Of a DNA stretch of 47,965 nt, positions 1-47,783 are shown piece after piece. The translations under genes were made by a program, and so were the position numbers. Origin of the DNA: Oscillospiraceae bacterium (GTDB lineage Bacteria > Bacillota > Clostridia > Christensenellales > Aristaeellaceae); contig JAITTS010000060.1 in assembly GCA_031286995.1 (NCBI GenBank), positions 1-47,965 of the forward strand, given 5' to 3'. Below the pieces are notes generated by a model. That model ran no database searches. It had not been told where the DNA came from and saw only the letters and a program-made list of their open reading frames with translations. Numbering within the stretch: position 1 is the first letter of the stretch; every line of letters begins with the position of its first letter.

Positions 1-16
1 TATCCGCATAAAAAAC

Positions 17-46
17 TTGCAATCCTGCCCGGTGCGGCGTTACAAT
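17..46 (+). promoter_or_regulatory. Putative sigma-A promoter for MATE gene
   Basis: TTGCAA (17-22), 18 bp spacer, TACAAT (41-46), upstream of RBS AAAGGAGA and the ATG at 88. Confidence 0.55.
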
Positions 47-87
47 AGCTGTGGTCGCACATACGCCGCAAAGGAGACCTCCCCCGG

Positions 88-1482
88 ATGAACATATCCC
101 TTGCGCTGCGCCGCTTGGCCACGCGCGGCACAGACCTGGATGCGCACGATTTTCGGCGCATCCTTACCATCACCGGCCCGGCGATGCTGGAGCTGGTGCT
201 TTCGCAACTGTTCGGCATGGTGGATACCATCATGCTGGGGCGTAGCCGCGTATCCACGGTGGGCATCGCCTCCGTGGGGCTCACCCACAACCCGATCAAC
301 CTGCTGCTGGGCATCATGAGCGCCTTCAACGTAGGCACCACAGCGGCCATCGCCTGGGCCATTGGCAGGCGCGACAGGGCAGAGGCCCGCGCCTTGGCGC
401 GCACCGCCATGGGGCTGAATTTGCTTCTGGGCGCGGTGGCTACGCTGCTGGGCTACCTGCCCGCGCCGGTAATCCTGCGCTTTATGGGCGCGCAGGCGGA
501 TACCTACGGTTACGCGCTGGCCTATCTGCGCATCGTCTCCCTGGGCTTTTTGCCCTCGGCGCTCAACATGGGTGTCACCGGCTGCCTGCGCGCGGCGGGG
601 CTGACACGCCTGCCCATGGTTTACAACCTGGCGGCCAACCTGCTCAATGTAGTGGGCAACTGGGCGCTCATCTTCGGCCACCTGGGTTTTGCCCCCATGG
701 ATGTGACGGGCGCGGCCATTTCCACCACATTTTCGCGGGTGGTGGGCGCGCTGGCCGCGCTGGTTGCCCTCTACGGCATGGAAAGCCCCGTGCGTCTGCG
801 CCTGCGGCAGGGGGTGGCCCTGCGCCTGCGCGACATGAAGCGGATACTGAGTGTGGGCCTGACTACCGCGGCGGAACAAGCGCTGATGCAGGTGGGTTTT
901 ATGTTCTTTGCCCGCACGGTCAGCGCCCTGGGCACGGTGGTGTTTGCCGCGCACCAGGTGTGCCTAAACATCAACGGCCTCAGTTGGGTGCCTGCGCAGG
1001 CCTTTGGCGTGGCCAGCACCACCCTGGTTGGCCAGCACATGGGCGCTGGGGAACCGGGCAAGGCACGGCATTGCGCGCGCGTCATTCTGCGCGGGGCGCT
1101 CACCAGCAGCCTGCTGGTGGGTTGCGTGTTTTTGCTGTGGTCGCAAAGCTTTGTGCGCCTGTACGATACCAATGCGGATGTGGTGCGCGCCGGGGCATCC
1201 GCCCTGCGCATCATGGCCCTGGGCATGGCGGGCATCGGCACGCAGATGGCAGTGGCCGCCGCCCTGCGCGGCGCGGGGGATGCGCGTTTTCCGCTGCTGG
1301 CATCCTGCGCGGGTATCTGGGTTTTTCGCGTCGCCCTGGCCCCGGTGTTCGTACACACGCTGGGGTGGGGGCTCAATGGCGCGTGGCTGTGCATCGTGCT
1401 GGATCAGTCTCTGCGCGCGCTGGTGGTTTATGCGCGCTTTCGTCACGGGGGCTGGATGCGCCGCGCCGCGCCGCCGTCCTAG
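88..1482 (+). CDS. MATE family efflux transporter
   Basis: Long ORF with RBS; 12-TM MATE-like protein (ITGPAMLELVLSQLFGMVDTIMLGR..., AAHQVCLNINGLSWVPAQAFGVASTTLVGQHMGAG). Confidence 0.93.
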   Translation: MNISLALRRLATRGTDLDAHDFRRILTITGPAMLELVLSQLFGMVDTIMLGRSRVSTVGIASVGLTHNPINLLLGIMSAFNVGTTAAIAWAIGRRDRAEARALARTAMGLNLLLGAVATLLGYLPAPVILRFMGAQADTYGYALAYLRIVSLGFLPSALNMGVTGCLRAAGLTRLPMVYNLAANLLNVVGNWALIFGHLGFAPMDVTGAAISTTFSRVVGALAALVALYGMESPVRLRLRQGVALRLRDMKRILSVGLTTAAEQALMQVGFMFFARTVSALGTVVFAAHQVCLNINGLSWVPAQAFGVASTTLVGQHMGAGEPGKARHCARVILRGALTSSLLVGCVFLLWSQSFVRLYDTNADVVRAGASALRIMALGMAGIGTQMAVAAALRGAGDARFPLLASCAGIWVFRVALAPVFVHTLGWGLNGAWLCIVLDQSLRALVVYARFRHGGWMRRAAPPS

Positions 1483-1500
1483 GCTATACAGGAGGATACT

Positions 1501-3261
1501 ATGTCTCGCAATCAAGACAATCCCCCCCGCCGCGCGGGGCGCCTGCGCGCGTTTATCCGCTTTTACAAGCCGCACAGACGGCTCTTTGCGGTGGATATGG
1601 CCTGCGCGCTGGTCATTGCGCTGGTGGATCTGGCCTTTCCCATGGTCACCCGCCACGCGCTGAACACGTACCTGCCGGGCAGGCTGTACAGCGCCTTCTT
1701 TCTCATCGTGGGGGCCATGGGCCTGGGCTACGTTCTGCGCACGGTCATGAACTATGTGGTGACCTACTTCGGCCACATTATGGGCGTGCGCATGGAGGCG
1801 GATATGCGGCGCGACATCTTTGCCCAGCTGCAGCGGCTCTCCTTCGCGTTTTACGATAAGAACCGCACAGGCTGGCTGATGAGCCGCGTGACCACGGATC
1901 TCTTTGATATCACCGAACTGGCGCATCACGGCCCGGAGGATCTGTTCATATCCACCGTGACGCTGGTGGGCGCCTTTATGTACCTGTTCGCGCTGCAATG
2001 GCAGTTGGCGCTGACCGTGTTTGTGATGGTGCCGCTGATCATCGCCTTTTCGATGACGCAGCGCCGCCGTATGCTGGGCGCCAGCGCGGCGGTGAAGGAG
2101 CGCATGGCAGGCATCAATGCGGATTTGGAGAGCAGCATATCCGGCGCGCGCACGGCCAAGGCCTTTGCCAACGAGGGCTATGAGATGCGCAAGTTTGAGG
2201 CGGGCAACAGCCGCTTCCGGGGCGCGAAGGGCAGCTTTTACAGCGCCATGGCGGTCTTTCACAGCGGCATGGAGCTTTTGCTGAGCCTGCTGGGCCTGGC
2301 GGTGCTGCTGGTGGGCGGCCTGCTCATGATGAACAGCGGCATGGGTGTGACCGAACTGGTCACCTTCAACCTCTTCGTGGGGGCCATCACTTCGCCCGTC
2401 CGCAAGCTGACCAACTTTATGGAGATGTTCGTGGTGGGCATGGCGGGCTTTCACCGCTTTATGGATGTGATGGATGAGGAGCCGGATATTGTGGATACCC
2501 CCGGCGCGCGCGCCCTGGATGCGGTGCGGGGGGATATACGCTTTGAGCACGTGCGCTTTGCTTACGGTGGTGGCGAGGCGGTGCTCGCGGATATCAACCT
2601 GCACATCGCCCCCGGGCGCACGCTGGCGCTGGTAGGCCCATCCGGCGGGGGCAAGACGACCCTGTGCCAGCTGATCCCCAGGTTTTACGATGTGCAGGCC
2701 GGGGCCGTGCTGCTCGACGGCGCGGATATCCGCACCCTCCGCGTGGCGGATCTGCGCGCGCAGGTGGGCATTGTGCAGCAGGATGTGTTTCTCTTCGCCG
2801 GCAGCGTACTGGAAAATATACGCTACGGCAAGGTGGATGCCACCCCCGGGGAAGTGATGGAGGCCGCGCGCAAGGCCGAGATACACGAGGATATCCTGGC
2901 CATGCCCGAGGGGTACGATACGGCGGTGGGGGAGCGGGGCGTGTTGCTATCCGGCGGGCAAAAGCAACGCGTGGCCATTGCGCGCGTGTTTCTCAAAAAT
3001 CCGCCCATCCTGATACTGGATGAGGCGACCAGCGCCCTGGATACCGCCACGGAGGCGCGCATACAGCGGGCTTTTGCCCGCCTGGCCCAGGGCCGCACCA
3101 CGCTGATGATCGCCCACAGGCTATCCACCATACGCGACGCGGATGAGATAGCGGTGGTGGATGAGCACGGCATCGCCGAGCTGGGCACACACCGGGCGCT
3201 GCTGGCCCAGGATGGGGTGTACGCAAAGCTCTACGCCGCGCAGTTTGATCGCGAGGCGTAG
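1501..3261 (+). CDS. ABC transporter, fused permease/ATP-binding (exporter type)
   Basis: N-terminal TM domain plus Walker A GPSGGGKTT, signature LLSGGQKQRVAIAR, Walker B ILILDEATSALD. Confidence 0.95.
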   Translation: MSRNQDNPPRRAGRLRAFIRFYKPHRRLFAVDMACALVIALVDLAFPMVTRHALNTYLPGRLYSAFFLIVGAMGLGYVLRTVMNYVVTYFGHIMGVRMEADMRRDIFAQLQRLSFAFYDKNRTGWLMSRVTTDLFDITELAHHGPEDLFISTVTLVGAFMYLFALQWQLALTVFVMVPLIIAFSMTQRRRMLGASAAVKERMAGINADLESSISGARTAKAFANEGYEMRKFEAGNSRFRGAKGSFYSAMAVFHSGMELLLSLLGLAVLLVGGLLMMNSGMGVTELVTFNLFVGAITSPVRKLTNFMEMFVVGMAGFHRFMDVMDEEPDIVDTPGARALDAVRGDIRFEHVRFAYGGGEAVLADINLHIAPGRTLALVGPSGGGKTTLCQLIPRFYDVQAGAVLLDGADIRTLRVADLRAQVGIVQQDVFLFAGSVLENIRYGKVDATPGEVMEAARKAEIHEDILAMPEGYDTAVGERGVLLSGGQKQRVAIARVFLKNPPILILDEATSALDTATEARIQRAFARLAQGRTTLMIAHRLSTIRDADEIAVVDEHGIAELGTHRALLAQDGVYAKLYAAQFDREA

Positions 3262-3339
3262 GCGGGCAGGCACGCTGTGGCCCTGCTGCTTCGTTGTATA
3301 GGGAGAGAAGCCCGCGCTTGGATGGAAAAGGAGGAAGCT

Positions 3340-4911
3340 ATGCCGCGCAAGATACTGATCTGCTTGGCCGCCCTGTCGTTGATGCTGACCCTCGGCGGCG
3401 CCCTGGCCGAAGCGCCGCAGCTTGAGGATGTGCTGCCCGGCAGCGATGTGGTGTGGCCCGGCGGCGCGCTGGTGATCACCTTTCGCGCCACCGATGGCGG
3501 CAATCTGCGCGTCACCGCCGCGCCGGATGACAGCAGCGGCGCGCAGCCCCTGCTGTGGCTGGATCAGCCCATCGCCCAAGGCGTGGGCAGCGTGGCCTGG
3601 GATGCCACCCTGGGCGGCCAGCCCGCATCCCCCGGCCCTTGGGTGCTGACCTTCAGCCTGACCAGCGGCGCGGGGGAGCGATCCATGCTGCAGGCGGTGG
3701 TGGTGGAGGTGCTGGCCCCGCCGGAGCCGGATACGGCTGCGCCCGCCCCAGCCATGGATTCGCCCGCCGGGGCGGGGGAGACGCCCGAACCCGGGCCGCC
3801 CGCCACGGCGGAGGCGCAGGGCTACGTGGCCCCCAGCACCCAGCGGCAGGTATCCCCCTATCCGGATCCGCATGAGAACTGTTTTTGGCAGATGGATCCC
3901 ACAAACTACAATGTGTATGACCCGGCGGATCAGGCGAAGATTTGGGATATTTTGATGCAGCCCATCTCGGTTCTGGATGTGGGGCCCACGGATCACGTGT
4001 ACCCGCTGATAGACCCCACCGGCGACCCCAGCGATACCGCGAACATGGCCGGGCAAGTACACGGCACCACCCAGGGCGTGCACGTGTTGGAGACCCGCCA
4101 GGATGGCTGGTCGCTCATTGAGGCGTACGCCAACGACGGGCAGCGCGCGCCGGATGAATCCCTGCAAAGCTATGCCGCCAAGCTCATCCAGGGCTACGTC
4201 AAGACCAGCCGCATCAAAACCGTTACGCCCAACCAGAATATCGCGCTGGTGATTGATAAGCTGACCCAGCGCCTCTACATCTTTCAAAAGGGCAAGCTGA
4301 CCGGCGAGCTGCTGGTCTCCACAGGTTTCCCCACCAAGAGCCAGCCCTTTAACGAGACCCCCGCGGGCGAGTTTCTCACCGCCAGCTGGGTCGGTATGTT
4401 TGTTAACGGCAAAATGCAGTGCGACCTGGCCATCCGCATCAACGGCGGCGTGCTGCTGCATGAGGTGCCGCACATCGCCATGGCCGATGAGACCCGCAAC
4501 TACACGCCCTTTGAGCCCTACTTGGGGCAAAAGGCCAGCCATGGGTGCGTGCGCGTGCAGCGCATGCGCAGCAACGCGGGCTTTAACATGGCCTGGTTGT
4601 GGAAGAATCTGAAGCGCAACGCCAAGGTGCTGGTGTGGGATGACGCGGGCCGCGCCGTGCAGCCCCAGCCGCCGGGCACCACCTACTACTACAACCCGGA
4701 TGGCGGCAAGAGCTACCACAGCGACCAGAACTGCGCCGCCGTCAGAGAGCGCTTTTTACCCCTGACGCCGCTGGCCGCTGAGGAGCTGTACGTGTCGCCC
4801 ACGGATAAGCTCATCCCCTGCTACGGGTGCCTGCCACCGGCCAAGGTGGCCGATCCCAGCCAGATCACCATCCCGGATGATGTGATCGGGGCAGGCACGG
4901 ATGATATTTAG
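3340..4911 (+). CDS. Secreted L,D-transpeptidase (YkuD) with FlgD-Ig-like and SH3-like N-terminal regions
   Basis: RBS GGAGGAAGCT before ATG 3340, signal peptide MPRKILICLAALSLMLTLGGALA, catalytic motif HGCVRV, C-terminal YHSDQNC...CYGC motif. Confidence 0.85.
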   Translation: MPRKILICLAALSLMLTLGGALAEAPQLEDVLPGSDVVWPGGALVITFRATDGGNLRVTAAPDDSSGAQPLLWLDQPIAQGVGSVAWDATLGGQPASPGPWVLTFSLTSGAGERSMLQAVVVEVLAPPEPDTAAPAPAMDSPAGAGETPEPGPPATAEAQGYVAPSTQRQVSPYPDPHENCFWQMDPTNYNVYDPADQAKIWDILMQPISVLDVGPTDHVYPLIDPTGDPSDTANMAGQVHGTTQGVHVLETRQDGWSLIEAYANDGQRAPDESLQSYAAKLIQGYVKTSRIKTVTPNQNIALVIDKLTQRLYIFQKGKLTGELLVSTGFPTKSQPFNETPAGEFLTASWVGMFVNGKMQCDLAIRINGGVLLHEVPHIAMADETRNYTPFEPYLGQKASHGCVRVQRMRSNAGFNMAWLWKNLKRNAKVLVWDDAGRAVQPQPPGTTYYYNPDGGKSYHSDQNCAAVRERFLPLTPLAAEELYVSPTDKLIPCYGCLPPAKVADPSQITIPDDVIGAGTDDI

Positions 4912-4924
4912 GCTACAGGCGCAC

Positions 4925-4956
4925 AGCATAGCCCCGGCTCCGGCTGGGGCTATGCT
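4925..4956. terminator. Strong intergenic hairpin (possible terminator without U-tract)
   Basis: AGCATAGCCCC (4925-4935) pairs perfectly with GGGGCTATGCT (4946-4956). Confidence 0.5.
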
Positions 4957-4996
4957 TGCGCGCGCCCAGGCTGGTTGACGCACAGCGGGCCCGTTG

Positions 4997-5026
4997 TTGC
5001 AAAATAACGTGTGTATACTGTATAAT
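4997..5026 (+). promoter_or_regulatory. Putative sigma-A promoter
   Basis: TTGCAA (4997-5002), 18 bp spacer, TATAAT (5021-5026). Confidence 0.6.
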
Positions 5027-5084
5027 AAGCGAAAGCATCCGTCCCGGCATGTCACGCGCGGGTGGGGCGGAAAGGGGGCCATCC

Positions 5085-6899
5085 ATGGCGCTGTTGGGCG
5101 GGTTTTGGCTTGCAGGCGCGGCGCTGATGCTGTTTGTGTGGTATCGCCTGTGGCGGCGCTACTGCGCGCGCGGCTTTGGTATGGATCCCTACCGCATTCA
5201 GGCGGTGGCGGATAGGCGATCCGCGCCGGTTTGGGTGCTGGTGATGGCACAGGTGGCGCTGCTGTGCGGGGTGCCCTTGGTCAATTACACGCAGGCCGCT
5301 GTGTATGGGGTAGGCCCCATGGCCCTGTGGGTGCTGCTGGGGGCGATGCTGCTGAGCGCGCTGCCCACCGCGGCGCTGATTTGGCTGCCCACGCGCACAA
5401 AAGGCCTGGGCGCGGCGGCCATGCTGCGCGGGCAGCTGGGGGAACGGGGGGTGCGCGCGATATCGCTGGCCGCGTGGCTGCTGTGCATGCTGTGCCTGGC
5501 CGTGATGCTCGATACCGTAGCCGGCAGCCTGGATGGCATCCCCGCGCGTGTGATGCCCGGCGATTATCTGGCCGATGAGGAGCGCTACAACCAGGTTGAC
5601 GCCTTGACAAGTTACCGGGGCGAGCAGCCTGTGGATGTGATGGACTATGTGGATTTGCCCGCCTTTAACGCCGCCCGGGAGACCAGCGAGTGGGAGGCGG
5701 CGCGCCGGGGCGTGACGGCGGGCGCCTTGGTGGCGGTATCTTTGCTGGCGCTGGTCTTCGGGCAGGCGGTGTTTCGCGTGCGGCGCTCGTCCCTGTTGGC
5801 GGGCGTGCTGGTGATGGCGCTGTTTATCGCCTATTGGGCGGCGCTGGCCTGGCAGTACCCTCTGCGCCTGACTGTGGGGCAATGGCGGCGGGGGCTGTTT
5901 GTGTACGCCGTGGTGGGCATGTTTGTGCGTCCCGTCACCCTCAGCCGTCCCCGGGATACCCTGGCGGGGCTGCTGACCCTGGCCCTGGCGCTTGCCGCTA
6001 CGGCAGGGGCCTGGATGGGCGGCGTGGCGGTTGCACCGCCCCTGTGGCTGGGCACGGCTGCGCCGGGCATGCCGCCCATGCTGCCAACGTTGTGCACGAT
6101 AGGGTTGGCCGGCGGCGCGGGCGTGCTGGGCTTTTTTTCCGCAGCGGGGCGCAACACACCACAGCTGACGGGCGAGCCCCAGGCTGCCCGTGTGGGCCTG
6201 GGTGGGGCGCTGCTCGCCGCGTGGGTAGGGCTGGTGTTTGTGGTGGCCCTGGGCAGCTACAGCGAGCCAGCCGCCGGCGGCGCGCTGCTCGCCCCCGTGC
6301 CCGTGCGCGCCTTGGCCGACCTGGCCGTGCAGGCGCTGGAGCCCGCCCTGGCCGCCCTGGGCCTGGCGCAGGCGGGTTTGGCGCGGGAATGGGCCGCTGT
6401 GTGGGTGATGTTGGTGGTCGCGCTGTGCGCCATGAGCGCGCTGGATGTGGCCGCACGCCTGGGCTGCGCGCTGCTGCGGGGCGCTTTTGCCGGGGGATGG
6501 CTGTCAAATAAGCGCTTTGCCCCCGCGCGGCTCGTGTGCGCAGGGGTCACGGCCGGTGGCGCGTGGCTGGTGACGGAGTACCTGAATTACGATATGATCT
6601 GGCCGCTCTTCGGCGCGGTTTCACCGGGGCTGTGCGCGGCCCTCGTGCTGCCCGCTGTGGCCTGGCTGCGCCGGGCCGGGCGCGCTTGGCGCTGCCTGGC
6701 GGTCATTGCCGCGGCGCTGGCGCTTCTCTCACTGGTCAGCGGCGGGCGGATGCTGTGGCAGATGTTCACCCTGTGGCAGAGCGACGAGCTGGATTGGCCG
6801 GATCTGGCCTTTTGCGCCGCCGGTGTGCTGTGCATGCTGGTGGGTTTGGTGCAAGTAGCCACCTGCTTGCGGGGCGAGGCGGGGGCGAAGGCCGATTAG
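5085..6899 (+). CDS. Polytopic membrane protein, divergent CstA-like (carbon starvation/peptide uptake family)
   Basis: RBS AAAGGGGGC and ATG 5085. CstA-like landmarks: an N-terminal block resembling the CstA GP.LAAQ..G..P..LW motif, and C-terminal YDMIWPLFGAVSPGLCAALVL resembling CstA LWPLFGIANQ. Confidence 0.55.
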   Translation: MALLGGFWLAGAALMLFVWYRLWRRYCARGFGMDPYRIQAVADRRSAPVWVLVMAQVALLCGVPLVNYTQAAVYGVGPMALWVLLGAMLLSALPTAALIWLPTRTKGLGAAAMLRGQLGERGVRAISLAAWLLCMLCLAVMLDTVAGSLDGIPARVMPGDYLADEERYNQVDALTSYRGEQPVDVMDYVDLPAFNAARETSEWEAARRGVTAGALVAVSLLALVFGQAVFRVRRSSLLAGVLVMALFIAYWAALAWQYPLRLTVGQWRRGLFVYAVVGMFVRPVTLSRPRDTLAGLLTLALALAATAGAWMGGVAVAPPLWLGTAAPGMPPMLPTLCTIGLAGGAGVLGFFSAAGRNTPQLTGEPQAARVGLGGALLAAWVGLVFVVALGSYSEPAAGGALLAPVPVRALADLAVQALEPALAALGLAQAGLAREWAAVWVMLVVALCAMSALDVAARLGCALLRGAFAGGWLSNKRFAPARLVCAGVTAGGAWLVTEYLNYDMIWPLFGAVSPGLCAALVLPAVAWLRRAGRAWRCLAVIAAALALLSLVSGGRMLWQMFTLWQSDELDWPDLAFCAAGVLCMLVGLVQVATCLRGEAGAKAD

Positions 6900-6919
6900 G
6901 CCGGAGAGGGGGGCCGCCC

Positions 6920-7957
6920 GTGAAGGTGACCATCAAGGATATTGCCAGGGAAGCGGGGGTTTCCCCATCCACAGTCAGCCGCGTGATGGCGGGCAGCGCG
7001 CGCATCAGCGACGCCACCGCCCAGCGTGTGCGCGCCGCCATGGAGCGCATGCGCTACCAGCCCAATCACCTGGCGCGATCCTTGGCGCAGCGCAAAACGC
7101 ACATTGTGGGCGTGGTGTTCCCCCAGGCCATCGACACCTCGCTGGAGCATCCCTTTTACCCCGAGGTTCTGCGGGGCATTGGGGCCGTGGCCGCGGGGCG
7201 GGATTATCATATTCTGCTGGCCAACCCCGCGCCGGGCAAGGACGAGGCGCAGATTGTGCGCCGCCTGGTCTACGGCGGGGTGGTGGATGGGCTGATTCTG
7301 CTGGCCAGCCGCGTATCGGATACCGTCAGTGAGGAACTGCTGACCCATCGCGTGCCCTTTGTGGTGGTGGGGCATCCGGAGCGGGATGACACTGTGCACT
7401 GGGTGGATAATGACAACGTGTACGCGGGCCGCATGATGACTGAGTACGTCATCGCCCTGGGGCACCGCCACATTGCTTTTTTGGGTTCCGCGCCGGATTT
7501 TCGGGTGACGGTGGAGCGCCTGCAGGGCTACCTTGGCGCGCTGTCGACCGCGGGCATTGATTGCGACCCCGGTATGATCATCCCAAGCCCGTTTAACGAA
7601 GGGCAGAGCGATGCGGAGCGGGTGGCGGCCCTGTTTACCAGCGACAACGCGCCGACCGCCGTGGTGGCGGGGGATGACTTTTTGGCCATTTGGCTCATGG
7701 GCGCGCTGGCGCGTCTGGGGCTGCGCGTGCCCGGGGATGTATCCATCACCGGCTTTAACCACGTGCTGGCCGGGCGCTACACCAACCCGCCCCTCACTAC
7801 GGTGGATATTGGGGCCTACAACCTGGGCAAGAACGCCTTTTCGATGCTGTACGAGGCCATGATGGATCCCGCGGCCCCGCCCCGGCATGCCCTGTTGCCC
7901 ATACAGTTTGTGCGCGGCGCATCCGTGGCCCGGTGTGCCGCGGGCGGGGGCCGTTGA
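6920..7957 (+). CDS. LacI family transcriptional regulator
   Basis: GTG start with N-terminal VKVTIKDIAREAGVSPSTVSRVMAGSARIS HTH and a periplasmic-binding-like effector domain. Confidence 0.93.
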   Translation: MKVTIKDIAREAGVSPSTVSRVMAGSARISDATAQRVRAAMERMRYQPNHLARSLAQRKTHIVGVVFPQAIDTSLEHPFYPEVLRGIGAVAAGRDYHILLANPAPGKDEAQIVRRLVYGGVVDGLILLASRVSDTVSEELLTHRVPFVVVGHPERDDTVHWVDNDNVYAGRMMTEYVIALGHRHIAFLGSAPDFRVTVERLQGYLGALSTAGIDCDPGMIIPSPFNEGQSDAERVAALFTSDNAPTAVVAGDDFLAIWLMGALARLGLRVPGDVSITGFNHVLAGRYTNPPLTTVDIGAYNLGKNAFSMLYEAMMDPAAPPRHALLPIQFVRGASVARCAAGGGR

Positions 7958-8021
7958 GGCTGGTTTTTTGCGCGCTATCATTCCGCCGTTTTGAGCGTCT
8001 CTACCATGTTCAGGGCTTTTT

Positions 8022-10751
8022 TCAGTCTGCCATAGGCTTTGCCACAGCCAGCGGTCTCCGCCGCGCTTTGCGCCATACCGCGATCCCCGCGATAAGCGCG
8101 GCCGTGGCCAGGCTGACCCATGCCCCGGCGGCCAGGCCCGGCGGCGTATACCGCAGATCCAGTGCGTGGATCCCCGGTGTGATGGGGATGACCATCAGGC
8201 TGGGCAGGGGTGCGCCAGGCTCGCCGCCCGCGCGCATAGGGGAGGCCGCCAGACTGAGCAGGGGCGCCACATCCTTGCCATCCACGCGCGCGCGCCATCC
8301 CTCGTCGTAGGGGAAGGTGCACAGCAGCGCTGTCTTGCCCGGCGGCACATGCACAGTGCCCGCCAGATGGCTGCCGGATAGCAGGCGCATCTGCGCGCCG
8401 CCCTCGCGGATCATTTCCACAGCCCGGGCCAGCGCCTGTGTATCCTGCTGCGCGAACTGAAAACGGGCGATGCGCAGGTAATCGCTCTCAAACCGCACGG
8501 TTACATCCGTGGTCTCGCCCAAGGCGAACAGGTTGTGGCGGTGGTAGCTATAAAAATTCCCCATATCCTGCCCGCCCGCGCTGACGCGCGCGGGCTGCCC
8601 CATGCCGGATACCTCGATATCCACGTACACCGGCCCCGCCGCTGCGTCCCTGGCTGCGGCGGTGATAGCAGCGGGCGCGGCCTTATCCTGCCTGTGGTAC
8701 ACTGTGCCGTCGCCCAGGGGCGCTGGGCGGGCATTGCTTGGGGTTACATCGCCCGTAAGCGGGCGCAGGATGGTGGTTTCTTCCCCCAGAATTGCGCTGT
8801 AGAGCCGGTTCACGGCCTCAAAGGGAGTGTCTGTGGGCAGGCACGCGCGCATCACCTCCGCGTCGGCCGCGAACACCAGCGGCAGGGCGTAGGGGTTTTC
8901 GTACACGGTGGCCTTGCCCTGGGTGAACAGGGGCCGCCAATCCGTCTGCGGCGGGGTGTTTTCCAGCGCCAGGTAGCGCAGGCCCAGCAGGCTATCCGCG
9001 GCGATGCCCGTGTGCGGGGAGTACAGGATTGTGGATATGCCGTTGCTGCTGTAGCCCAGCGCGCCGAAAAGGGCCAGCGGGCCCTGGCGCGCCACGGAGG
9101 AGAAGTTGGATAGACCGGGGTAGCCGAGGGCCAGGCTGTCGTCGGCGTTCAGCAGGGGCAGTTCCATACGGTAGAGGCCGCCATCCCGGTCGCGGATGGC
9201 CTGGGCCAAGGCAGTGTTTTGGGTGATGCGGTTCGCAATGGCCGCGCGGTTCATTTGAAAGGTGCCTGCCTGTATGCGCCGGATGGTCAGTTCGCCCTGC
9301 AGCAGAAGGTGCGCGCAGAGGATGAGCGCCAGGCCCCACGCCGCTACGGCGCGCGCCCTGGGCGCAGGGTCGCCGCAAGCCGGCCGGCGCTTGCCGCATG
9401 TGATCAGCAGGCAGCAACCCGCCACCAGCGCCACATCCAGCGCGCGCCAGGGCAGGGCGGCTGCGTCGAAGCCCTCTCGCCGGGCGATGAGCAGCGCGAG
9501 CCCCGCGAAGGCGACGGCGATTGCGAGGCCATGCCAGCGCCGTGTGCCGCCGCGCCGCGCCCAGCAACGGCCTGCCAGCGCCACCGCGCAAAAGGGAAAT
9601 AAAAAGGCGTTGCGGTAGGGGAAGCCCATGGGGCTGTTAAAGCCGTGCCAGATCAGGTTCAGTCCGGGGTCGTGAAAGCTGGTGATCAGCGCGAAGAGCA
9701 GCAGGGCGGCGGCCAGTTTTTCGCGCCAGCGTATCTGTGTGTTTAAAAAGTACAGGCCTGTCAGGGCTGTTGTGCCCGCGCCGCAGAACAGGGCGGGGAT
9801 GGCGGGGAAAGCGTCCTGTTCCGTGGCCAGGGGCACGGTGAGCAGCCCGGATAGGATGCCCAGGCGGGGTGCGCCATCCGTGCCCCGCAGGGCGGCCAGG
9901 CTTTGCAGCACGCCCAAGGATGCCTTGCTGTCGGATGAGAGGGAGGCGAACACGGGCAACAGCACGAAGGCCGCCAGCCCTGCCGCGCCCAGGGATGCCA
10001 GGGTGAACAGCCCCGCACGCCGCCCCAGCCAGGCCAGGGTGTGCCGCCTGGGCGCGCCCGCCAGGCACCCCAGCGCGAAGGCCAGGGCCGAGAAAAGGCA
10101 CAGCATGTATCCGATGTAGTAGTGGGTGATGAGCGCCCCAGCCAGACTGAACAGGTACAGCCACGGGCTTCGCCCGGCGAAGAGGCGGCGCAGGCCCAGG
10201 GCAACCAGGGGCAGTAAAATAACCCCATCCAGCCACATCACGTTACTGAAGTAGCGGGTGGTGTAGCCGGATAGGGCGTAGGCGGTGGATAGGGCGACGG
10301 TGACAGGCGTGGCGAAGGGCGGCCCGTCCTCCGCCCGCGCGCACAAAAACAGCGCGCAGGTCAGCCCGCACAGGCCGGTTTTGAGGGTGACCACGCACAG
10401 TAGCGCTTCGGGCAGCCGCGCGGCGGGGAAGAGCCCTGCCAGCAGGTTGACCGGGCTGAAGAGGTAGGTGGCGGCCAGATCCCACATGTTGCCGCCGGGG
10501 GATTTGGCCAAGCTGTAGAGCAGGCTGTTCTGCCCGCGCAGCACGCCCTGCAGGTAGGCAAAAAAGCTGATGTACTGGTTGCGCATATCCGCCAGCACCA
10601 CGCTGTGGGGGCCGAAGGGCGCCCAGCCCCGCAGCGCGGCCAGGGTGAGCCAGAGGCAGGCGGGCAGCAAAAAGGCCGCGGATAAAACGCGCCAGGATCC
10701 GCGGCCCGCGCCCCTTTGTGGTGCGCCCGCCTTGCCGCACCTGTCCATCAT
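8022..10751 (-). CDS. YfhO family membrane protein
   Basis: Multi-TM N-terminus (DMRNQYISFFAYLQGVLRG...SPGGNMWDLAATYLFSPVNLL...) and extracytoplasmic C-terminus typical of YfhO; start overlaps stop of the upstream gene (ATGA). Confidence 0.85.
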   Translation of the reverse strand: MMDRCGKAGAPQRGAGRGSWRVLSAAFLLPACLWLTLAALRGWAPFGPHSVVLADMRNQYISFFAYLQGVLRGQNSLLYSLAKSPGGNMWDLAATYLFSPVNLLAGLFPAARLPEALLCVVTLKTGLCGLTCALFLCARAEDGPPFATPVTVALSTAYALSGYTTRYFSNVMWLDGVILLPLVALGLRRLFAGRSPWLYLFSLAGALITHYYIGYMLCLFSALAFALGCLAGAPRRHTLAWLGRRAGLFTLASLGAAGLAAFVLLPVFASLSSDSKASLGVLQSLAALRGTDGAPRLGILSGLLTVPLATEQDAFPAIPALFCGAGTTALTGLYFLNTQIRWREKLAAALLLFALITSFHDPGLNLIWHGFNSPMGFPYRNAFLFPFCAVALAGRCWARRGGTRRWHGLAIAVAFAGLALLIARREGFDAAALPWRALDVALVAGCCLLITCGKRRPACGDPAPRARAVAAWGLALILCAHLLLQGELTIRRIQAGTFQMNRAAIANRITQNTALAQAIRDRDGGLYRMELPLLNADDSLALGYPGLSNFSSVARQGPLALFGALGYSSNGISTILYSPHTGIAADSLLGLRYLALENTPPQTDWRPLFTQGKATVYENPYALPLVFAADAEVMRACLPTDTPFEAVNRLYSAILGEETTILRPLTGDVTPSNARPAPLGDGTVYHRQDKAAPAAITAAARDAAAGPVYVDIEVSGMGQPARVSAGGQDMGNFYSYHRHNLFALGETTDVTVRFESDYLRIARFQFAQQDTQALARAVEMIREGGAQMRLLSGSHLAGTVHVPPGKTALLCTFPYDEGWRARVDGKDVAPLLSLAASPMRAGGEPGAPLPSLMVIPITPGIHALDLRYTPPGLAAGAWVSLATAALIAGIAVWRKARRRPLAVAKPMAD

Positions 10752-35159: not shown

Positions 35160-35400
35160 ACCATTACTCTTCGTAAAAGTTTTCTTTTGCGCATAGTTTA
35201 TGAGTGACTACAATGTTAAAAGCACCCTCAAGTCTTGCAGTTTCGATCCGTCGCCTAAAATACAAGACGTTATTTTTAGTCCAAAAATTAGCGACGAACG
35301 CTCATAAGCGGTGGCAAACTCGCTCTCGCCCATCTGGACAGGGAAACTGTTTATGCGAGTTCGCCCCACCAAGGACGCAAAAATTTTATGTGAAAGCGTT
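35160..35400 (-). repeat. Possible dispersed/mobile-associated sequence of unknown type
   Basis: Compositional break; the minus-strand conceptual translation contains GANSHKQFPCPDGRERVCHRL (from 35360 leftward), resembling spurious ORFs I recall near mobile regions in gut Clostridia; memory-based only. Confidence 0.25.
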
Positions 35401-35413
35401 GGAGGGGCTGTGC

Positions 35414-36118
35414 GTGCAACCATTAAAGCTTGGCGTTTACCGCCACTACAAGGGCAATCATTACGAGGTCATCGGATTCGCCAAACATAGCGAATCCCTC
35501 GAAGATATGGTTATCTATAAAGCGCTGTACGGGGAACGCGGGACTTGGGTTCGTCCATTGTCCATGTGGGAGAACCCCATGGACGTTGGCGGCAAGACGA
35601 TCCAGAGATTCGAGTATGTCGGCGACAGTGAAATCATCAACCGGCCGGAAAAGAAAATCGTCTACTTCGATATGGATAATGTCCTTGTTGACTTTGAAAG
35701 CGGCATAGACAGACTATCCCCGGAGATACAAAAAGCGTATGAAGACAACCTGGACGAAGCGCCGCACATTTTCAGCCTGATGGATCCAATACCCGGCGCT
35801 ATCGAAGCGGTTCACCGGATTGCCGAACATTACGAGGTGTATATCCTCTCCACCTCGCCATGGAAGAACCCGGACGCCCTGCAGGACAAGCTGGATTGGA
35901 TCAAGAAGTACTTTGGCGCCGGAAATGATAGTCCGTTCTACAAACGGGTCATCATCACGCACCATAAGGACTTGAACAAGGGGGCTTTCCTGATTGATGA
36001 CCGGACGAAAAACGGCGCTGGAGAATTCGAGGGAGAATTGATTCAGTTCGGTACGGCGACATTCCCGGACTGGGCTGCTGTACTGGCATACCTGCTGCCG
36101 AAGAAGCCAGTGCCATGA
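35414..36118 (+). CDS. DUF1653 domain fused to HAD-type 5' nucleotidase
   Basis: GGAGGGG RBS 6 nt before GTG 35414; LGVYRHYKGNHYEVIGFAKHSESLEDMVIYKALYG...WVRPLSMWEN (DUF1653) followed by KIVYFDMDNVLVDFESG...YILSTSPWKNPDA (5'-nucleotidase-like). Confidence 0.82.
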   Translation: MQPLKLGVYRHYKGNHYEVIGFAKHSESLEDMVIYKALYGERGTWVRPLSMWENPMDVGGKTIQRFEYVGDSEIINRPEKKIVYFDMDNVLVDFESGIDRLSPEIQKAYEDNLDEAPHIFSLMDPIPGAIEAVHRIAEHYEVYILSTSPWKNPDALQDKLDWIKKYFGAGNDSPFYKRVIITHHKDLNKGAFLIDDRTKNGAGEFEGELIQFGTATFPDWAAVLAYLLPKKPVP

Positions 36119-44444: not shown

Positions 44445-45063
44445 ATGCCCGCTATCACTACCGATAATTCCCATTATGAAATCCGCGACGGAGTAGAAGT
44501 ATGTATTGATGAGGAATTGCCGTTTGATATTCCCGATTCGTGGGTGTGGGTTCACCTTGAAAGCGTGTGCGAGTATATTCAGCGCGGCAAGTCTCCGAAA
44601 ATACTCGCTCATCAAAAAATACCCCGTTGTGGCGCAAAAATGCAATCAGTGGAGCGGGTTTAGCATCGAAAAAGCGCAGTTCATTGAGCCGGATAGTTTG
44701 GCTTCATACGGTGAAGAACGCTTGTTGCTTAACTTGCTTCCCATTACCGAACTCATGCAGAAGTGCATTGAGGAGAACGCCCGCTTCGCCCTCGACCAGA
44801 CCGATTACCAAGAACGTTACGACGGGCTTGTCACCCGCTTCGATACGACGAAGGATCGCTATGAGGAGGTCACGGGGCTTATCTCAGAGCGGAAGGCTCG
44901 CGGCGAAATGATGGGCGCTTTCATCGCTGAACTGCAAAGGCAGGACGGACTGATAACCGATTTTGACGAGTGGCTTTGGTACAGCCTTGTGGACTGCGCC
45001 ACAATCTACAAGGAAAGCGACGTGCGGTTCACTTTTAAGAACGGCGCTGAAATACAGGCATAG
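44445..45063 (+). pseudogene. Chimeric remnant: HsdS fragment joined to a serine recombinase C-terminus
   Basis: HsdS-like [30 protein letters not shown] in one frame continuing as [31 protein letters not shown] in another; then [17 protein letters not shown]...[53 protein letters not shown], recombinase-like. Confidence 0.75.
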
Positions 45064-45118: not shown

Positions 45119-45173
45119 TGCCAGTATTGATTTTATTAACGGCACAAAAATCAAATTTCAATCGCAATACCTA

Positions 45174-45202
45174 TTGACTTTCGTGCAAGTTTTATTTATA
45201 AT
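45174..45202 (+). promoter_or_regulatory. Sigma-A promoter of the AbiE operon
   Basis: TTGACT, 17 bp spacer, TATAAT. Confidence 0.8.
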
Positions 45203-45214
45203 AGTTGCATGAAA
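45179..45214. promoter_or_regulatory. Inverted-repeat candidate operator
   Basis: TTTCGTGCAA (45179-45188) and TTGCATGAAA (45205-45214) match as an inverted repeat at 9/10 positions and flank the -10. Confidence 0.6.
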
Positions 45215-45233
45215 ATCAAAGGAGGTGGTCGCT

Positions 45234-45827
45234 ATGCCGCTGCCAATCGCACTTGCGGAAATCCTCACGCAAAACGATGGTGTAATCACCACCGCGCAAG
45301 CTAATACAATTGGCGTTTCCAACGAACGTCTGCGCCTTCTGGCAAATGCCGGGGAGCTGGATCGGGTATCGCACGGGGTTTATATTTCCCCTGACGAGTT
45401 TGTCGACAAGATGTACGTCGCACAGCTCAGGAGACCGAAAATCATCTACTCCCATGAGACGGCGCTTTTCCTGCACGAACTTACCGACCGAGACCCTATT
45501 AGTTATACCGTGACCGTACCTACCGGATATAACGCGGCAAGGCTGCGTGACGACGGGCTGAATGTCTTCACCGTTAAACGCGAGCTGCATGAAGTGGGGA
45601 TGGCGCAGGCAAAGACCGTATTCGGTCATACCGTCACGACTTATGGGCTGGAACGCACAATTTGCGACTGCATCCGCAGCCGCAACCAGATGGACATCAC
45701 GGTTGTTACCGATGCCATGAAACGCTATGCAAAACGGAGCGACAAGAATCTGAACACGCTGATGGAGATGGCGGAGACATTCCGCGTGACCAAGCTGCTT
45801 AGAAGTTACATGGAGGTACTTTTATGA
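45234..45827 (+). CDS. AbiEi family type IV antitoxin / transcriptional regulator
   Basis: N-terminal wHTH (GVITTAQANTIGVSNERLRLLANAGELDRVSHGVYISPDEFVDKM); HETALFLHELTDRDP; TTYGLERTICDCIRSRN; ATG preceded by AGGAGG. Confidence 0.92.
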   Translation: MPLPIALAEILTQNDGVITTAQANTIGVSNERLRLLANAGELDRVSHGVYISPDEFVDKMYVAQLRRPKIIYSHETALFLHELTDRDPISYTVTVPTGYNAARLRDDGLNVFTVKRELHEVGMAQAKTVFGHTVTTYGLERTICDCIRSRNQMDITVVTDAMKRYAKRSDKNLNTLMEMAETFRVTKLLRSYMEVLL

Positions 45828-46657
45828 AAACATCGACGCAACTGAAGGCTCTCGTCCGCAACCTTTCCAAAGCAAAGGGGGTGGAGGCGGAAATCATCCT
45901 GCGAAGCTTCATGCTCGAACGGTTCTTGGAGAGAATCTCCAAATCGGAGTACAAGAGCAATTTCATCCTGAAAGGCGGTATGCTGATCGCTGCGATGGTC
46001 GGTATAGACACCAGAACCACGATGGACTTGGACGCCACCATCAAGGGACAGACGCTTAACGAAACACAAATCACCGAAATCATCGAGGGCATCCTTCTGG
46101 TTCCCGTTGACGACGGCGTTCTCTTTACATTCCGTAGGATTGAGGAAATCCGCGAGGAAGCCGACTATCCCGGATACCGCGTATTGATTGACGCCGCGCT
46201 GGACAAGACCCGCCAAACCATGCATATCGATATTACAACCGGCGATTTCGTCACCCCAAAGGAAATTGAATATAGCTTCAAGCTGATGTTTGAAGAAAGG
46301 TCTATCAGCATTCTGGCCTATAATCTTGAAACCGTACTGGCCGAAAAGTTCGAGTCCATCGTCTCACGGGGCTTGACCAACACTCGGATGAGGGATTTTT
46401 ATGATATCTACATCCTGACTACTACGCAGCAATTTGACGCCGCAACATTCCGTATGGCTTTGGAGAAAACAAGCGCAAAGCGAAAGACTGCCGAACAGGT
46501 AAAAGGCGCAGAAACAGTCGTCGAGCGTATTTCGGAAAACAAAGTCTTAACCGATTTATGGAGGCGCTACCAGAGCAAATATGTCTATGCCGCCGATGTG
46601 TCTTGGGAGCAGGTAATTGAGGCACTGCGAAATTTGGCGCTGGCGAATCTCAGATGA
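45824..46657 (+). CDS. AbiEii/AbiGii-type nucleotidyltransferase toxin
   Basis: ILRSFMLERFLERISKSEYKSNFILKGGMLIAAMVGIDTRTTMDLDATIKG; starts within the AbiEi stop (ATGA overlap). Confidence 0.93.
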   Translation: MKTSTQLKALVRNLSKAKGVEAEIILRSFMLERFLERISKSEYKSNFILKGGMLIAAMVGIDTRTTMDLDATIKGQTLNETQITEIIEGILLVPVDDGVLFTFRRIEEIREEADYPGYRVLIDAALDKTRQTMHIDITTGDFVTPKEIEYSFKLMFEERSISILAYNLETVLAEKFESIVSRGLTNTRMRDFYDIYILTTTQQFDAATFRMALEKTSAKRKTAEQVKGAETVVERISENKVLTDLWRRYQSKYVYAADVSWEQVIEALRNLALANLR

Positions 46658-46669
46658 GGAGGGACTCAT

Positions 46670-47539
46670 ATGGATACCGCATTAAAGTTGCGAATGAGCA
46701 TAGATAGCAGACAGCCTTTGTCTGACCATAATATTGACAACTTGCTGGCACAATCAGCCTTGGTTCAAAAACTGACGGCGGACTTCATGGAACAACCTTT
46801 GTTTGCGGTTTTCCGCATTATGGGCTTGTGCGAAATCCCCTATGCGCAGAAACTTCCTTATACACAAAAACTGATTGATTACATTAACCAAACAATAGCG
46901 ACAGATGAAGGCTTCGCCTGTTTGGGAGCGACAAAAGAACTCGTTCCGTGCTATAACGCAATGCTTCTGGAGGCCTACAGCAAATTAGGAATGGCGGCAA
47001 GCGCCCCGGCACAATCCGCCTTGAATTGGATTAAGCAATACCAATTGTTTGAACGCAATCAAACTACAACATGGCCGTATGGCGGAGTTTGCAAACATGG
47101 CGGCTGTCTCGGCGTGGTTCCATGCTATATCGGGGTAGGCAAGACAGTCCGTTCGCTTATCACCTATTCAGAGTATTTGGAGCGCAAAGATGTGGAAATC
47201 GAAAAGTTAATAATTCAGGGTGTAGAGTATATGCTGCGTCATAATATGTACCAACGGCTATCAACCGGAAAGCCAATTAGCGCACATATTACAGATATCA
47301 TGATGCCGCAAAACTACGCACTGTCGTTGACCGATTTGACATATATTGTAGGGAAACGAAAGTTACGAGACGATTCTCGTATCAGCCCGCTCTTGTCGAT
47401 GCTAAAAGAAAAACAAGTTGCCGAAAGTCAGTGGAAAATCGATTATCTTTATTCCTATAGAGGCTATATCGCGTTCGAGAGCAGAAGAAAGGCATCCGAG
47501 TGGATTTCATACCTTTTCCCGTTGTGGCTTTCTGATTAA
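46670..47539 (+). CDS. Uncharacterised protein resembling terpenoid-cyclase/prenyltransferase alpha-toroid proteins
   Basis: RBS GAGGAGGG and ATG 12 nt after the toxin stop; WPYGGVCKHGGCLGVVPCYIGVGKTVRSLITYSEYL, repeated helical blocks, WKIDYLYSYRGYIAFESRRKASEWISYLF. Confidence 0.55.
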   Translation: MDTALKLRMSIDSRQPLSDHNIDNLLAQSALVQKLTADFMEQPLFAVFRIMGLCEIPYAQKLPYTQKLIDYINQTIATDEGFACLGATKELVPCYNAMLLEAYSKLGMAASAPAQSALNWIKQYQLFERNQTTTWPYGGVCKHGGCLGVVPCYIGVGKTVRSLITYSEYLERKDVEIEKLIIQGVEYMLRHNMYQRLSTGKPISAHITDIMMPQNYALSLTDLTYIVGKRKLRDDSRISPLLSMLKEKQVAESQWKIDYLYSYRGYIAFESRRKASEWISYLFPLWLSD

Positions 47540-47603: not shown

Positions 47604-47783
47604 TTATTTAGGCGCAAGGTTGTCTCCGAAGTTGGCGATAGCCTTCTCGACGTTTGACCACGCTGTATTCTGAGTCAGCACCGCGCCGACCATCACTTCG
47701 TATGGCGTCCTCGCAGGCCACCAGTGTAACTCGCCGTAATGGGCGAGAAGTGTTTCGTATATGGATAACAGCTTTTCGCTCAT
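47604..47783 (-). pseudogene. Truncated endonuclease III / HhH-GPD-like N-terminal fragment
   Basis: MSEKLLSIYETLLAHYGELHWWPARTPYEVMVGAVLTQNTAWSNVEKAIANFGDNLAPK*, with strong AGGAGGTCGCA RBS; the domain is cut short. Confidence 0.65.

Follow-up and report, generated by a model that had tools for sequence, protein, structure and literature searches.

The window, that is, the whole stretch of 47,965 nucleotides analysed here (contig JAITTS010000060.1 of an Oscillospiraceae bacterium), carries near its right end three genes read in the same direction, namely an AbiEi antitoxin gene, an AbiEii toxin gene and a third gene starting shortly after the toxin stop codon (Table 1). The GC content of the window backbone is 64%; it drops to 45-53% from about 44.1-44.5 kb and stays low until the end of the contig (44100-47965), and this right end is a horizontally acquired patch. 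Near its left edge, the stretch 44445-45063 holds a fragment of HsdS, the type I restriction specificity subunit, apparently frameshifted, which runs into the C-terminal remnant of a recombinase.

Table 1. Features of the right end of the window.
Feature	Coordinates	Strand	Evidence
HsdS fragment	44445..44663	+	57% identical to an annotated Ruminococcus albus restriction subunit S
Recombinase C-terminal remnant (left limit approximate)	44740..45063	+	35-43% identity along the whole query; annotation as recombinase family protein in two matches
Promoter-like site of the AbiE operon (TTGACT-17-TATAAT)	45174..45202	+	11/12 consensus matches; consensus match only
AbiEi antitoxin / putative autorepressor, 197 aa	45234..45827	+	PF13338 37.2 bits (cut-off 25); PADLOC AbiEi 6.9e-71
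AbiEii nucleotidyltransferase toxin, 277 aa, motifs I-IV intact	45824..46657	+	PF08843 142.9 bits; PADLOC 7.3e-102
Intergenic gap, 12 nt, carrying the third-gene ribosome-binding site; without promoter-like site	46658..46669	+	
Third gene, 289-aa alpha/alpha-toroid-like protein, probable passenger	46670..47539	+	
Endonuclease III-like gene, truncated	47604..47783	-	

The assignment of the first two genes to an AbiEi/AbiEii pair, as the original prediction had it, is borne out by Pfam and PADLOC matches and by the intact toxin motifs. AbiEi matches PF13338 above the cut-off and is encoded directly upstream of the toxin gene, its stop codon overlapping the AbiEii ATG as ATGA (45824-45827). AbiEii carries KGGx15DLD, KFESIVSR (with K and R seven residues apart) and RDFYD, in agreement with the motif I-IV definition of the family (hG[G/S]x15DhD, the K and R of motif III, and +DxxD); mutation of the four motifs abolished toxicity in the AbiE system of Dy et al. 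(2014; PMC3985639). Judged by their sequences, both proteins are typical of their families, and their genes form a standard bicistronic type IV module. This AbiEii is the only one in its genome, and the closest relative found (L048) is 68% identical, with the third gene absent behind it. The L048 AbiEii lies behind genes that we take to be an IS21-type transposase pair.

Regarding the layout of the operon, the coordinates of the open reading frames, the ATGA overlap, the 12-nt spacing and the ribosome-binding site of the third gene were confirmed on the sequence, and the translation of the third ORF quoted in the original prediction matched exactly. The AbiEii stop codon TGA occupies 46655-46657, and AGGAGG, a strong ribosome-binding site, immediately precedes the third ORF. 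AGGAGG at 45220-45225, together with the MPLP start of the 68%-identical relative in L048, makes ATG 45234 a likelier start of AbiEi than GTG 45225. The TTGACT-17-TATAAT element is the sole strong promoter-like site 5' of the AbiE operon. In AbiE promoters, AbiEi binds operators that are inverted repeats; here, an exact inverted repeat of at least 6 bases was not found in 45140-45240, and an imperfect one (CGTGCAA/TTGCATG) was noticed by eye near the -10 element. Downstream of the third gene, a terminator is unsupported, the region folding no better than shuffled sequences. Since the third gene has no recognisable promoter here, transcripts from the AbiE promoter probably read through into it, and its proposed cotranscription with AbiE is likely. 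The three predicted genes are genuine: the first two fall into the AbiEi and AbiEii families, and ten near-full-length relatives were found for the third.

The pair resembles the type IV AbiE system (Dy et al., 2014; PMC3985639) in its overlapping genes, its AbiEi_4 winged-helix antitoxin, its AbiEii motifs (hGGx15DhD, K..R, +DxxD), the promoter-like site in front and its location on a mobile patch. The sole difference is the unrelated gene downstream, AbiE itself being ordinary. The MenA/MenT systems represent a related nucleotidyltransferase toxin-antitoxin type, a likeness drawn from description and not from sequence, and the reports on them (PMC10435456; PMC11375011) show tRNA modification for MenT toxins.

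Base composition sets the third gene apart from its neighbours. The third-position GC content is 0.83 in FeoB, a gene of the host backbone, 0.62-0.63 in the AbiE genes and 0.49 in the third gene; given the gap between the latter two values, the third gene was probably acquired from another source than AbiE. Elsewhere in the window, a gene at 35204-36118 with a GC content of about 50% within the 64% backbone is a possible second acquired gene; in our reading, its protein opens with a DUF1653-like part, after which comes a 5'-nucleotidase-like one (YFDMDNVLVDFESG).

Scanning genome contigs yielded ten relatives of the third protein with 47-61% identity over almost the full length, in Syntrophomonadaceae, Tissierellia, Faecalicatena, a Ruminococcus-labelled MAG, Breznakia, Enterococcus and Streptococcaceae, and Enterococcus megaplasmids carry further members at about 50% identity. 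The family, seen here in Firmicutes only, is rare: of 399 phylum genomes surveyed, 4 carry it, and the members besides that of the window comprise two decayed or partial copies and a distant one. Additional searches of 196 genomes of the window's class, 299 of the family to which the L004 genome belongs and 199 of the order of the L003 genome added one distant relative (L052) and a closer one (L059), the gene of the latter being solitary. Relatives were absent from phage records and viral contigs at the sensitivity used. Broken copies were observed at L014:1498-2295 (genome G060) and L015:1477-1803 (G368), with stop codons or the C-terminal part alone, which suggests that the gene is dispensable in some lineages.

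Neither the third protein, searched against Pfam, NCBIfam, PADLOC and PDB sequences, nor its family alignment, searched against Pfam and PDB, gave a match. Weak hits to RdgC, DUF3791 and DOCK_C-D_N families were taken as chance. Six residues (C94, C146, C152, H191, P213 and W278) are invariant even in distant relatives with 20-30% identity. On sequence grounds, the family is real and conserved, albeit uncharacterised, and its invariant cysteines and histidine (C94, C146, C152, H191) suggest an enzyme or a metal site at one of the barrel's ends.

An AlphaFold model built from 11 sequences is largely helical (mean pLDDT 80.7, pTM 0.85). Its best Foldseek matches in PDB are GH76 mannanases, the complement C3d/macroglobulin thioester domain, squalene-hopene cyclase and GH105 enzymes, all of them alpha/alpha toroids (probability 1.00, TM-score about 0.4-0.5); a viral structure library gave no convincing match. 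The likeness to these toroid proteins concerns the predicted overall fold, whereas no sequence similarity and no family model match were found, and the E-values are weak (best 1.6e-3). The original prediction of a protein resembling toroid cyclases or prenyltransferases therefore fares differently in its two parts. The guess about the fold was reasonable, because AlphaFold and Foldseek support a predicted alpha/alpha toroid; the activity is not upheld, as no family model reached its threshold. This fold is common to many unrelated activities and is thus not diagnostic of a cyclase or prenyltransferase. We consider it improbable that the protein works on isoprenoids as a terpenoid cyclase or prenyltransferase: squalene-hopene cyclase is indeed among the fold matches, and a distant relative has as its first-listed plasmid match a protein annotated as squalene cyclase (22% identity), but the best cyclase model, SQHop_cyclase_C, reached only E=0.057, in one relative, and the top fold matches are GH76 glycosidases and complement/macroglobulin domains with many activities. 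Our best inference is that the protein is an enzyme whose Cys/His site sits on a toroid scaffold.

The relatives are mostly solitary genes in varied, unrelated surroundings. In Enterococcus gilvus the gene stands alone, flanked by one divergent and one convergent gene; in a Streptococcaceae MAG it sits between aroB-like and aroC-like genes, and in Faecalicatena beside a two-component system. In the Tissierellia MAG contig L003, an AbiEii gene lies 1.9 kb upstream of the relative. There, the stretch 1-9536 presents in series the AbiEii gene, a topoisomerase III-like gene, the third-family gene and large integrative-element-like genes, and AbiEii and the relative look like residents of an integrative element. 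Downstream of two relatives, ArsC/Spx-like thiol-redox genes were noticed (L004:7134-7475 and L006:6879-7289), which may be chance.

In the original prediction, the three genes might constitute a three-component defence or toxin-antitoxin variant. The toroid protein would then either modulate AbiEii, in the role of a second antitoxin, a sensor or a modifying enzyme, or bring a defence function of its own. In line with this notion, the third gene follows AbiEii after 12 nt with its own ribosome-binding site and no promoter of its own, and L003 offers a second AbiEii less than 2 kb from a relative. However, AbiEi adjoins AbiEii in 34 of 34 loci examined and the third gene does so in the window only; it is present at 0 of the 33 other AbiE loci, 28 of which continue for 1 kb or more downstream while 5 end sooner. 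AbiEii is absent (E<=1e-5) from 8 of the 10 genomes carrying the third family and from 1 of 2 such plasmid records. Of 398 further genomes from the phylum, 45 contain AbiEii, 3 contain the third family and none contains both; with the window included (399 genomes, 46 and 4, respectively), its own genome is the sole overlap. The codon composition of the third gene differs as well. Homologues thus live mostly without AbiE, and good promoter-like sites precede several of them (10/12 upstream in L004, L005 and L010, against a best of 6/12 for the window gene). We consequently regard a three-component system as highly improbable, and the prediction is not sustained in this respect. AbiEii and members of the third family lie close together at 2 of roughly 12 loci (the window and L003), more often than random placement would give, though both families can be mobile cargo; that mobile elements bearing AbiE have repeatedly picked up the toroid family as an accessory, as in these two cases, and that it tunes or extends AbiE there, seems to us just as improbable.

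Because its family elsewhere lives without AbiE, the third gene is most likely a hitchhiker, and the locus is very probably an ordinary bicistronic AbiE module on an acquired patch, followed by an unrelated, probably cotranscribed passenger gene. By analogy with the family, AbiEi would repress the operon and neutralise the AbiEii nucleotidyltransferase toxin; an unrelated toroid gene would have come to rest behind AbiEii, its expression probably falling under AbiEi control, and it would be dispensable for toxicity or neutralisation. As a counterpoint, the close spacing and the missing separate promoter would be in keeping with a degree of selection at the operon level. A possible but rather doubtful reading, which overlaps the passenger one, is that the third gene is independent cargo with a selected benefit of its own, its place behind AbiE being due to the stabilising effect of AbiE on the element; its expression under the AbiE promoter would then be useful, with no functional link to the toxin. 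The low-GC patch with its HsdS and recombinase remnants and the integrative-element-like surroundings in L003 would fit, as would the stabilisation of mobile elements by AbiE reported by Dy et al. (PMC3985639) and in PMC11062541, but most relatives lie outside recognisable mobile elements and no benefit is known.

Taken together, our findings favour the passenger reading and avert a false claim of a three-component defence system: a gap of 12 nt within a mobile patch was no guide to shared function. The AbiE module is of an already known kind, and beside it stands a rare conserved protein family, uncharacterised and outside every family library searched.
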